Assembly: GCA_003168375.1 (NCBI GenBank)
Contig: PMSI01000003.1
Span: forward strand, 1,116,001 to 1,180,000
Direction: 5' to 3'
DNA: 64,000 nt
From: Vulcanimicrobiota bacterium
Lineage (GTDB): Bacteria > Vulcanimicrobiota > Vulcanimicrobiia > Vulcanimicrobiales > Vulcanimicrobiaceae
Shown: one piece after another, positions 11,997-15,326 of the stretch
How the letters are laid out: every line of letters begins with the position of its first letter
Position numbering within the stretch: position 1 is the stretch's first letter
Position numbers and translations under genes: made by a program
Notes under the pieces: generated by a model
The model's database searches: none
What the model saw: only the letters and a program-made list of their open reading frames with translations
What the model was told of the DNA's origin: nothing

Positions 11997-12461
11997 TCAT
12001 TGCAAATCGGCGAGCACGTCGCCGAGGTCGGAACCGGCACGCTCCCTGAGAAGCCGGTAGATCAGCGACGCGGGGAACCCCAGGCGCTCGAGCTTCCGCG
12101 CGGCGGACTGATAGGAGACGTCGGGCTTGGCGCGACGGATCCGGTCGTACGCCGCGCCCGCCCGCTCGGACTCGCGGACGTCCGCCGAAGCGACGCTCTC
12201 GCGGGCGGCGTCGCGGTCGATCCCACGCTTTACGAGCTCCGCGACGAGCCGGGCGTCACCAACGGCGGCGCGTTTCGTCTCGACGTAGAGCGTCGCGAAC
12301 AGGTCGTCGTCGAGCAGGCCGTCCCGTTTGCACGACGCGACCGCCGCTGCGACGGTCTCGTCGTCGAAGCCCTTGCGTTCGAGCTTCGCGAACAGCTGCG
12401 CCTCGGTGAGACGGCGCGCCGCGAGCATGCGAAGCGCCGTCACCCGAGCTGATGATGGCAT
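11997..12461 (-). CDS. recX: RecA regulator RecX
   Basis: Regulatory protein that binds RecA filaments and limits their activity. The 154-residue protein has the RecX tandem three-helix repeats: ALRMLAARRLTEAQLFAKLERKGF, then DGLLDDDLFATLYVETK, and a C-terminal repeat RKLERLGFPASLIYRLLRE. It lies directly downstream of recA on the same strand, the common arrangement, separated only by a copy of the dispersed repeat. ATG at 12459-12461. Confidence 0.9.
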   Translation of the reverse strand: MPSSARVTALRMLAARRLTEAQLFAKLERKGFDDETVAAAVASCKRDGLLDDDLFATLYVETKRAAVGDARLVAELVKRGIDRDAARESVASADVRESERAGAAYDRIRRAKPDVSYQSAARKLERLGFPASLIYRLLRERAGSDLGDVLADLQ

Positions 12462-12470
12462 CCTGATCCC

Positions 12471-12489
12471 TCGACAAGCTCAGGACGAA
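12471..12489. repeat. Dispersed repeat, copy 2, covering the recA stop codon
   Basis: TCGACAAGCTCAGGACGAA on the plus strand. Read on the minus strand it supplies the last two Ser codons and the TGA stop of recA (12480-12482), so the repeat forms the recA 3' end and the recA-recX spacer. Confidence 0.7.
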
Positions 12490-13535
12490 GGGTCGTCGTC
12501 CTTTGGTGCGACGCCGACGGGCTTCGCGAGCCCGTTCGGCGCGACGGTCGCCTTGAGCGCCTCGCGGATCTTGGTCGCGATGTCGTCGGCGACGTCGGTG
12601 TGCTCTTCGAGGAACGACTTCGCGTTCTCGCGGCCTTGACCGATGCGCTGCTCGCCGTAGGTGTACCACGAGCCCGACTTGCCGACGATGTTCCGCTCGA
12701 GCGCGACGTCGATGATCGAGCCCATCTTCGAGATCCCCTTGCCGTAGGTGATGTCGAACTCGGCCATGCGGAACGGCGGCGCGACCTTGTTCTTCACCAC
12801 CTTCACGCGGGTGCGCGAACCGACGACGTCCTGCCCGATCTTGATCTGTTCGAGCTTGCGCACGTCGAGCCGGACCGAGGCGTAGAACTTCAGCGCGCGG
12901 CCGCCCGAGGTCGTCTCGGGGCTGCCGAACATGACGCCGACCTTCTCGCGCAGCTGGTTGATGAAGATCATCACGCACTTCGAGCGCGAGATCGCCGACG
13001 TCAGCTTGCGCAGCGCCTGCGACATCAGCCGCGCCTGCAGGCCGACGTGGGTGTCGCCCATGTCGCCTTCGAGCTCGGCCTTGGTGACGAGCGCGGCGAC
13101 CGAGTCGACGACGACGACGTCGACCGCGTTCGAGCGGACGAGCATCTCGGCGATGTCGAGCGCCTGTTCGCCGGCGTCGGGCTGCGAGACCAATAGGTTG
13201 TCGAGATCGATCCCGAGCGCTTGCGCGTAGGTCGGGTCGAGCGCGTGCTCGACGTCGATGAACGCCGCGGTGCCGCCGGCCTTTTGCGCCTCGGCGATGA
13301 CGTGCAGTGCGAGCGTCGTCTTCCCGCTCGACTCCGGACCGTAGATCTCGACGACGCGTCCGCGCGGCAGTCCGCCGACGCCGAGCGCGAGGTCGAGGGC
13401 GATCGATCCCGTCGAGATGACGTCGTACGCCATTCTGTCGGTGAACTCGCCCATCTTCATGATGGAGCCCTTGCCGAACTGACGCTCGATCTGTGCGAGC
13501 GCGTTCGAGAGGGCTAGTGCTTTTTCGTCGGCCAT
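12480..13535 (-). CDS. recA: Recombinase A
   Basis: ATP-dependent strand-exchange protein and SOS co-protease. It has 351 residues with the Walker A motif GPESSGKTT at 66-73, the MAW-type loop region (EALDIAEML-like [10 protein letters not shown]), [20 protein letters not shown], and the L2-region signature [20 protein letters not shown]. The ATG at 13533-13535 starts [21 protein letters not shown] longer in-frame extension lacks any RecA similarity. A LexA-type box lies about 160 bases upstream at 13696-13709. The C-terminal tail ends inside a dispersed repeat. recX follows. Confidence 0.98.
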
Positions 13536-13695
13536 GATGCTCCGTGCGGCAGAATGCTGTCGGTGTTTTTCCGACGGTACCGCGCCTGAGTGCCAGATGC
13601 GTGGCAGAGTGCGAAGCCGTCGCCGGTCATTCCCACGCTGCTCCCGCGCCGGCAAGGGCGCGTCGTTAGCACCCCACTTCGAAGCAGGCGGCCAT

Positions 13696-13709
13696 CGAAC
13701 CTCTGTTCG
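13696..13709. promoter_or_regulatory. Bacillus/actinobacterial-type LexA (SOS) box upstream of recA
   Basis: CGAAC-CTCT-GTTCG is an exact match to the CGAAC-N4-GTTCG box bound by LexA/DinR of Firmicutes and Actinobacteria, within a longer perfect palindrome ATCGAAC-N4-GTTCGAT (13694-13711). It lies directly downstream of a minus-strand TAATAT hexamer (13716-13721), where a repressor would block recA transcription. Confidence 0.75.
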
Positions 13710-13712
13710 ATT

Positions 13713-13761
13713 GCCATATTATTTCGGTCTTTACTTATTTAAGTGAATAGCATAATATGGC
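13713..13761. promoter_or_regulatory. Divergent recA/arsR control region with mirrored -10 elements
   Basis: The arms GCCATATTAT (13713-13722) and ATAATATGGC (13752-13761) are perfect inverted copies 29 bases apart. On the plus strand TTTACT (13730-13735) and TAATAT (13753-13758) are spaced 17 bases and would start transcription at or near the arsR ATG (13765), giving a leaderless message. The other arm supplies TAATAT (13721-13716) for recA. An inner palindrome ACTT-ATTT-AAGT (13733-13744) is a candidate ArsR-type operator. The remaining gap (13536-13693) shows nothing I recognise. Confidence 0.6.
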
Positions 13762-13764
13762 CGC

Positions 13765-14085
13765 ATGCACGGCTTCGCGGCGCTCGGCGACCCGACTCGG
13801 CGGCGGATCGTCGAGATGCTCGCCACGCGCGAGCTACCGGCCGGCGAGATCGCCCGCCGCTTCGACATGACCGCCCCGGCCGTCTCGCAGCATCTGCGGC
13901 TGCTGCGCGACGCCGGACTCGTCCAGGTGCGCCGCGACGCGCAGCGCCGGATCTACGCGCTCGATCCGAGCGGCCTCGCCGAACTCGACGCGTGGCTCGC
14001 GCGCTTCCGGCGCTTCTGGAGCGGCCGGCTCGACGCGCTGGAGCGCGAGCTCGATGCGCACGACACGAAAAGGAATCCGCGATGA
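13765..14085 (+). CDS. ArsR-family winged-helix transcriptional regulator
   Basis: A 106-residue DNA-binding protein: FAALGDPTRRRIVEMLATRE, then the recognition helix region GEIARRFDMTAPAVSQHLRLL and the wing GLVQVRRDAQRRIYALDP. It has no cysteine pair of the ELCVCDL kind, so metal sensing is not indicated. Members of this subgroup are usually followed by an SRPBCC/AHSA1 gene, but none is present here. The promoter hexamers place the transcription start on the ATG, so a leaderless mRNA is likely. The target is inferred to be its own promoter region, shared with recA. Confidence 0.85.
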   Translation: MHGFAALGDPTRRRIVEMLATRELPAGEIARRFDMTAPAVSQHLRLLRDAGLVQVRRDAQRRIYALDPSGLAELDAWLARFRRFWSGRLDALERELDAHDTKRNPR

Positions 14086-14109
14086 ACGACGCGCGCGGGC
14101 GCGTCGTTC
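14084..14109 (+). terminator. Hairpin at the arsR stop codon
   Basis: GAACGACGCGC and GCGCGTCGTTC form a perfect 11-bp stem around a GCGG loop. The stem begins in the arsR TGA. No T-run follows, so it is a terminator-like or mRNA-stabilising hairpin, not a classical intrinsic terminator. Confidence 0.45.
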
Positions 14110-14219
14110 GTGCTAGAAGTCGACGCGGAGGTGCAGCCTGCGCGCCCCATCGAACAGTGAGGGTGTGGCTCCTTTTTCGTCGGGTGGACGCCAAACTCGC
14201 TGTGTTCGGGGTATTCCGG

Positions 14220-15326
14220 ATGACGCGAACCTTCGCTCTCCTCGCGCTCGTAGCGCTGGTCGGCTGTAACAGCGGCTCGGCGTCGCCGCCGCCGCTCTTC
14301 ACCGGGGTCGCCGCACCGACGCCGTCGCCGACGCCTTCTCCGCGAGCGCTGTCGGGCACGATCACCGAGTTCTCCAGCGGTATCACCGCCCCGAACCAGT
14401 TCAGCAACCAGCTGACTGGGATCGCTGCCGGGCCGGACGGCAACCTCTGGTTCACCGAGAACTGCGGCGATCAAATTGGCCGCATCACACCGGCCGGCGC
14501 GGTGACCGAGTTCGCGAACGGCATCACGGGGGGAAGGGCGTGTGTCGGCTCCATCGCGGCAGGTCCGGACGGTAACCTCTGGTTCACCGAGGCCAATGCG
14601 AGCCGGATCGGACGCATCACGCCTGCCGGCGTGATCACCGAGTTCTCCAGCGGTATCACCCCGGGCTCCGGTCCGTCCGGCATCGCCAAGGGGCCGGACG
14701 GCAACATGTGGTTCACCGAGATCGGCGGCGGCGGGAAAATCGCTCGCATCGGGCGCATCACGCCGGCCGGCGTCGTCACCGAGTTCGCAAGCGGTATAAC
14801 ATTGGGCGCCTTCGCGACGAGCATCACGGCGGGACCGGACGGAAACATGTGGTTCACCGAGCGCGGCCAAGCAGGTGACCCGTTCATCGTCGAACCGTTT
14901 CCCGGCGTCGGTCGTATCGGTCGTATCACTCCGGCCGGTGTGGTGACGGAGTTTGCCGCCGGCATCTCGCCGTTCGCGCTGCCCGTCAGTATCGCGGCGG
15001 GGCCGGACGGCAACCTCTGGTTTACCGAAGAGAACGGCGGTCGGATCGGACGCATTACGCCGGCCGGCGTGGTCACCGAGTTCGGCGCCCTCACCGGCGA
15101 GCCCGAAGGGATCACCGCCGGACCGGACCGTAACCTTTGGTTCGCGGAGATCAGCGGGGGTCGCATCGGCGGGAATAGCCTCGGCCGCATCACCCCGGCA
15201 GGCGTCATCACCGAGTTCTCCAGCGGGATCAGTGCCGATGCCGCCCCGACCGGGATCACCACCGGTCCGGACGGCAACATCTGGTTCACCGAGTACAACC
15301 TCAATCGCATCGGGCGCCTTCAGTGA
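14220..15326 (+). CDS. Vgb-like seven-repeat beta-propeller lipoprotein
   Basis: Exported lipoprotein of 368 residues: signal sequence TRTFALLALVALVGC with lipobox LVGC, a Pro/Ser/Thr linker (PTPSPTPSP), then seven repeats built on AGPDGNLWFTE...IGRITPAGVVTEF, each about 45 residues, which would make a seven-bladed propeller. Annotation pipelines tend to call this virginiamycin B lyase. The mature protein contains no histidine at all, whereas the Staphylococcus Vgb mechanism depends on a histidine, so a streptogramin lyase function is unlikely. A ligand-binding or structural role at the cell surface is more probable. ATG at 14220-14222. Confidence 0.8.
   Translation: MTRTFALLALVALVGCNSGSASPPPLFTGVAAPTPSPTPSPRALSGTITEFSSGITAPNQFSNQLTGIAAGPDGNLWFTENCGDQIGRITPAGAVTEFANGITGGRACVGSIAAGPDGNLWFTEANASRIGRITPAGVITEFSSGITPGSGPSGIAKGPDGNMWFTEIGGGGKIARIGRITPAGVVTEFASGITLGAFATSITAGPDGNMWFTERGQAGDPFIVEPFPGVGRIGRITPAGVVTEFAAGISPFALPVSIAAGPDGNLWFTEENGGRIGRITPAGVVTEFGALTGEPEGITAGPDRNLWFAEISGGRIGGNSLGRITPAGVITEFSSGISADAAPTGITTGPDGNIWFTEYNLNRIGRLQ

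Follow-up and report, generated by a model that had tools for sequence, protein, structure and literature searches.

The window analysed here, 64 kb in length, is C6:1116001-1180000 of a 4.43-Mb genome (G000) from the Vulcanimicrobiota, a name that we take to be equivalent to Eremiobacterota/WPS-2. Within it, recA (12480..13535, minus strand; TIGR02012, E 8.9e-166), whose ATG at 13535 is the start conserved across the genus, and an arsR gene (13765..14085, plus strand) diverge from a common upstream region. Next downstream of recA lies recX (11997..12461, minus strand), recognised by the Pfam domains RecX_HTH1 and RecX_HTH2, and arsR encodes an ArsR-family protein of 106 aa (HTH_5, E 5.5e-16; NF033788 above cut-off) that is predicted to be made from a leaderless transcript. 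An initial annotation of 13694-13768 had described a perfect LexA box, mirrored -10 hexamers within inverted arms, an arsR promoter and a central palindrome, all of which we found in place, and had proposed that ArsR is wired into the SOS promoter of recA; our results partly support this interpretation. The elements described below, their conservation and the two regulons (LexA and P1, the latter named for a proximal recA promoter) are read from sequence and genome comparison, with genome-wide sites located by pattern searches and fetched stretches.

A LexA box at the predicted distal recA promoter

The box CGAACCTCTGTTCG (13696..13709) is an exact CGAAC-N4-GTTCG, the sole perfect one within the window. 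By prediction it spans roughly +1 to +14 of a distal promoter of recA, P2. G000 carries lexA (TIGR00498, E 9.1e-68, over the cut-off) and 29 perfect boxes, against 6 matches to a reversed-pattern control. About half of the 29 sit within predicted genes and are probably chance matches (genes around the boxes were called with a simple codon score of our own). Others stand where a promoter would be expected, 189-192 bp before lexA itself, 31 bp before an imuA-like gene, 7 bp before a gene for a dnaE2-type polymerase (PHP and DNA_pol3_alpha domains), 69 bp before one for a class II ribonucleotide reductase (nrdJ-like), 21 bp before one for an AlkB-like 2OG oxygenase, and before an HTH gene. The genome lacks neither lexA nor further boxes, the two absences that the initial annotation had named as fatal to its reading.

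Comparison with relatives points the same way. Boxes of the CRAAC-N4-GTTYG type stand upstream of lexA in all 30 lexA loci examined (G000 and 29 relatives), and a perfect box lies 130-180 bp before recA in each of the eight genus genomes with a usable recA locus, as well as at recA in a genome of the sister genus (G028). Across seven arsR-bearing genus members and G028, the box arms and their flanking T and AT are invariant, and recA shares this conserved type of boxed promoter with lexA and other SOS genes. With lexA in the genome, the box kept throughout the genus and further boxes before other SOS genes, we conclude from comparison that the recA box is, as initially annotated, a genuine LexA box and that it belongs to recA. 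It matches the Gram-positive/actinobacterial LexA box exactly before recA, lexA and the imuA-like and dnaE2-like genes. The host phylum here, however, is Vulcanimicrobiota (Eremiobacterota), for which our literature search found no paper on LexA, and of the 35 recA genes compared within the order only 13 are boxed. By that count the LexA box is not the main conserved signal of recA.

Two further observations came from these searches. A perfect LexA box lies about 70 bp before mraZ (G000:C4:1256953, L011), which suggests SOS control at the head of a possible cell-division cluster. In G028, recA is split over two reading frames (C48:93759-94725, L089) and a stop codon interrupts the arsR match, reflecting either an assembly error or decay.

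Conserved and variable parts of the shared region

The most conspicuous feature of the intergenic sequence is a pair of perfect inverted 10-nt arms, GCCATATTAT (13713..13722) and ATAATATGGC (13752..13761), that lie 29 nt apart and together span 13713..13761. An inverted repeat that long arose in 11 of 5,000 dinucleotide shuffles of the stretch, and the arms are thus above chance in this single sequence. They place a TAATAT at 13716..13721 on the minus strand, the putative -10 of P2, for which we saw no good -35. Within the genus, however, the columns at -13..-7 are poorly conserved and read TAATAT, TAAAGA (in the sister genome G004), TAATGT, TAAAAT and others. The mirrored TAATAT hexamers of the initial annotation are therefore real in this sequence but do not appear to be a designed feature, and the lack of conservation of the arms rules them out as one regulatory unit.

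What the seven arsR-bearing genus members and G028 do share is two islands, CTTANNTAAG-NNAAG on the recA strand and TCGAAC-N4-GTTCGAT. The first contains the central palindrome, which we predict below to be an ArsR operator, and the second the LexA box. Operator and box keep a spacing of exactly 24 bp in every one of the eight genomes with both elements, even though identity in the intervening sequence is only about 54% and the flanking distances vary.

The arsR promoter and its predicted operator

The arsR promoter, TTTACT-17-TAATAT (13730..13758, plus strand), ends 6 nt before the ATG at 13765, and the transcript probably starts at or near the ATG, as the initial annotation predicted. Between its -35 and -10 lies the palindrome ACTTATTTAAGT (core CTTANNTAAG; 13733..13744), the core of which is near-invariant in the eight genomes. 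The -35 (TTKACT) and the palindrome are conserved both in the genus and at distant loci where ArsR is paired with an AHSA1 protein. Of 83 loci that hold the closest ArsR relatives in other phyla, 77 have AHSA1 downstream, and the whole layout recurs at many, with the palindrome between -35 and -10 and the start codon only a few bases beyond.

Among the ArsR loci compared, recA adjoins only the Eremiobacterota ones. The operator core is present at ArsR loci without recA in Bradyrhizobiaceae, Chloroflexi and Ferrovibrio, and in a MAG labelled Bradyrhizobiaceae, with recA not nearby, the operator region reads TTGACTTAATTAAGT. Because the same promoter and operator occur at ArsR-AHSA1 loci in other phyla far from recA, they would not have been built for SOS. 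One genus member, G007, has lost arsR together with the palindrome and retained the LexA box, which assigns the palindrome to arsR and the box to recA. We conclude from these comparisons that the central palindrome is arsR's own, autoregulatory operator. A genome-wide search for TTKACTTANNTAAG gave one site in G000 (control, 0) and none in G007; in a few genus members the site is missing or occurs twice.

The same comparison argues against the idea that arsR is itself an SOS gene under control of the LexA box. The box does lie in the shared region, about 20 bp upstream of the arsR -35, but at about -56 to -69 from the arsR start it is outside the core promoter. It is also missing at distant arsR loci and has persisted after arsR loss. 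On distance and on the evidence of G007, we regard LexA action on arsR as highly improbable.

An arsR gene that has lost its partner

The gene has the marks of an autoregulated ArsR-AHSA1 pair in its ArsR-family winged helix-turn-helix (HTH_5, NF033788) and, as judged by comparison, in the palindromic operator within its own promoter. The overlapping downstream AHSA1/SRPBCC gene is missing from the window genome, as it is from G004, G006 and G010. Such a gene follows arsR in G002, G008 and G005, overlapping the arsR stop codon in the first two, and at the same place the window holds a possible remnant start with an ATGA overlap (14082..14130, plus strand). This possible remnant reads in frame into a gene for a virginiamycin B lyase-like lipoprotein (14082-15326, plus strand; own start at about 14220), a run-on that is likely a deletion junction.

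Two other assignments were considered and rejected. The protein has no cysteine and hence none of the cysteine metal ligands of ArsR/SmtB sensors, which rules out a metal-sensing ArsR/SmtB protein; against the SdpR autorepressor family (NF033789) it scores 82.3 bits, below the cut-off of 100. The nearest studied case that we found is Rv2034-Rv2035 of Mycobacterium tuberculosis, an auto-repressing ArsR that has a polyketide_cyc2/SRPBCC partner and does not answer to the metals tested (PMC3338718). The likeness lies in the overlapping SRPBCC-type gene downstream and in the palindromic operator within the regulator's own promoter (PMC3338718). The mycobacterial operator, however, is CCGTAAGT-N4-ACTTACGG rather than CTTANNTAAG, and no recA neighbour is reported for that pair (PMC3338718), whereas the window arsR adjoins recA, has lost its partner gene and encodes no cysteine.

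Does ArsR act on recA?

With the recA start placed at about 13709, the predicted operator falls at about -24 to -35 of the predicted P2, and ArsR bound there would therefore block P2. An effect of ArsR on recA is thus possible, and this geometry, together with the 24-bp spacing in eight genomes, is the part of the initial proposal that stands. In its full form the proposal would have ArsR at 13733-13744 repress P2 physiologically, with a ligand tuning the SOS level of RecA and the solo arsR kept for this purpose after AHSA1 was lost. The fixed spacing in 8/8 genomes, despite the divergence of the sequence between, speaks for it. So does the window operator being the only strong site in the genome, which makes recA the only other gene that it could control, and together the two favour some constraint. 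The gene is also under purifying selection (dN/dS 0.07-0.34 across the genus, and 0.10 between G000 and G004, both solo genomes), although this selection may predate the AHSA1 losses, which may be too recent for dN/dS to prove a role for solo ArsR. Constant spacing, for its part, may be explained by the intolerance of overlapping promoters to indels. Identical operators and promoters away from recA, and the absence of arsR and operator from G007, where the LexA box and the proximal promoter P1 persist, both argue that ArsR is not essential to SOS control; P1 would moreover bypass ArsR. We therefore consider physiological ArsR-SOS wiring unlikely and prefer the plainer reading of an autoregulated neighbour with an overlapping promoter.

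A predicted proximal recA promoter conserved across the order

Alignment of the recA leaders exposed a second predicted promoter, P1, about 90 bp further downstream than the elements of the initial annotation, which did not mention it. It consists of the dyad TGCCA-N6-TGGCA, an 11-nt spacer and the -10 TACCGT (13574..13606, minus strand), with the start codon 38 nt beyond the motif. The dyad (with at most one mismatch) and a TAnnnT-like -10 at the same spacing precede recA in 32 of 35 genomes of the order (28/31 in the family and 4/4 in the sister family), at 55-105 nt from the start codon; none of 17 genomes outside the order has them there. From this distribution we take P1 to be the recA promoter conserved through most of the order.

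The order, with 41 genomes searched, holds 142 exact matches to TGCCA-N6-TGGCA-N11-TAnnnT, where the reversed control yields 5, and none occurs in 19 further genomes of the phylum; by genome, presence in the order versus the rest gives a Fisher p of 7.5e-13, a figure that ignores the kinship between genomes. G000 has five (reversed control, 0): the window site and those at C4:1277639, C6:106258, C6:234973 and C6:560534. The genes that follow them are recA, a Ymh-domain gene, a zinc-finger nuclease-like gene, a membrane protein gene and an HNH-like gene. Order-wide, the motif precedes recA, ssb (3 genomes), UvrD-like helicases (3), an RNase_T/DnaQ-like exonuclease and HNH-type nucleases, along with TnpB, a Ymh-domain protein and hypothetical genes; some of these names were assigned by eye, and a Pfam scan of one of two related genes that we took for RecB-like nucleases gave no match. 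From the -10 to the start codon is often just 6-9 nt. The dyad, at about -39 to -24, keeps a fixed distance from a weak -10, an arrangement common to these DNA-repair genes.

In G018 and G036 (L236, L242), genes for TnpB/IS605 OrfB-like proteins carry a P1-type motif 6 nt from the start codon, as though DNA damage had come to control these transposon nucleases.

The conserved sequence could instead belong to a structured regulatory RNA in the recA 5' leader, downstream of the LexA box, a reading that we examined by folding, alignment, RNAalifold, Rfam and model building. The GC-rich leader (13536-13693, minus strand) is strongly foldable in the genus (-84 kcal/mol), weakly resembles Proteo-phage-1 in Rfam (E 0.042, below the gathering score) and shows a few compensatory changes. 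The covariation term is unfavourable (+3.19), however, and outside the genus the long stems are gone whereas the dyad, the N11 spacing and TAnnnT persist. The motif also stands before ssb and nuclease genes, often 6-9 nt from the start codon and so too close for a leader. We dropped the leader RNA, which now seems very remote, since its stems are confined to the genus while the promoter-like dyad and spacing extend further.

A candidate WYL-type activator of P1

The candidate activator of P1 is a 325-aa protein with WYL and WCX domains (G000:C6:69512-70483; L195:1063-2037), the only WYL protein detected in G000. A close orthologue (E<1e-60) is present in 39 of 41 genomes of the order, and in the 19 genomes outside it no WYL match is better than E 4e-25, so that regulator and motif co-occur at this level of similarity. 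G031, the only nearly complete family genome devoid of any WYL protein, also lacks the motif both genome-wide and at recA, where it has a LexA box instead. Conversely, G022 has two motif matches and no close WYL orthologue that we could find. The tentative assignment of the WYL protein is based on phyletic co-occurrence, which is largely one clade contrast plus G031.

For mycobacteria, Gamulin reportedly gave in 2004 the consensus tTGTCRgtg-N8-TAnnnT. Mycobacterial recA has a PafBC-dependent P1 and a LexA-dependent P2 (PMC5656591, PMC11804915), and the window resembles it in having two predicted promoters, one with a LexA box and one of a LexA-independent damage type, the latter with an element near the -10 that is set a short, constant distance from TAnnnT. 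This is not a PafBC regulon proper, however: the PafBC motif is non-palindromic (PMC6789036), whereas P1 has a perfect TGCCA-N6-TGGCA dyad, and the predicted regulator is a single WYL-WCX protein, the only one of its kind in the genome, rather than a PafB/PafC pair. The LexA promoter here is also shared with arsR, unlike that of mycobacterial recA. DriD of Caulobacter, a homodimeric WYL activator, has a palindromic site that overlaps the -35 and keeps a constant spacing to a weak -10 (PMC12340889). The site geometry and a single WYL protein are common to both, as is, on our prediction, an SOS-independent DNA-damage regulon; the DriD consensus, ATACGAC-N7-GTCGTAT, is a different sequence, and the targets that we found named for it are didA, bapE, recJ and dnaG, with recA not among them (PMC12340889).

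By analogy with PafBC and DriD, P1 would most likely be activated by a WYL-WCX homodimer upon ssDNA accumulation. Another order-specific regulator, such as an XRE or other HTH protein, might drive P1 in its place; co-occurrence is what supports the WYL protein, and G022 has motif sites without a detected close orthologue. That alternative is tentative and somewhat less probable than not, given that both the WYL protein and the motif are missing from G031 and that the regulon content, the dyad over the -35 and the fixed -10 distance match DriD and PafBC (PMC12340889, PMC11804915).

Discussion

Taken together, these comparisons make it probable, in our judgement, that 13694-13768 is the junction of two promoters of independent evolutionary origin, a LexA-controlled P2 and an autoregulated arsR promoter, with a WYL-driven P1 nearer to recA. 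LexA would repress P2 through the box at its predicted start site, and damage-activated RecA would relieve this repression. ArsR, which would derive from the widespread ArsR-AHSA1 pair whose second member was lost here, is predicted to repress its own leaderless promoter by binding ACTTATTTAAGT between the -35 and the -10. The arsR promoter and P2 overlap, and polymerase on one would exclude polymerase from the other; operator-bound ArsR could also dampen P2. P1 would enter as a third element, activated by the WYL-WCX homodimer. From sequence we infer the transcription starts, the identities of the binding proteins and the responses in this scheme.

A broader proposal follows for the order, on which we are evenly divided. 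It would run a LexA-independent DNA-damage regulon of recA, ssb, UvrD-like helicases, DnaQ-like and HNH nucleases and sometimes TnpB, switched on by a homodimeric WYL-WCX protein at TGCCA-N6-TGGCA-N11-TAnnnT. LexA control of recA would then be secondary, present in some genera and, in this one, placed back-to-back with an overlapping arsR promoter.

The striking palindrome beside recA would thus be mostly the autoregulatory operator of a neighbour, and the residue of the initial idea is whether ArsR dampens the SOS promoter that it overlaps. The stronger biology appears to lie just outside 13694-13768, with recA under LexA and a predicted WYL-type damage promoter and with a small, order-specific DNA-repair regulon in a lineage of little-studied soil bacteria. 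For this regulon there are a precise motif and a single candidate regulator, and nature supplies controls in G031, without regulator or motif, and in G007, without arsR. Damage control of the WYL type has so far been worked out for PafBC in mycobacteria and actinobacteria and for DriD in Caulobacter. If the proposal is true, the order would hold a third, independent-looking version, with recA and ssb among its members, in a phylum whose genetics has hardly been studied by experiment, and dual control by LexA and a WYL protein would be suggested as a general solution.
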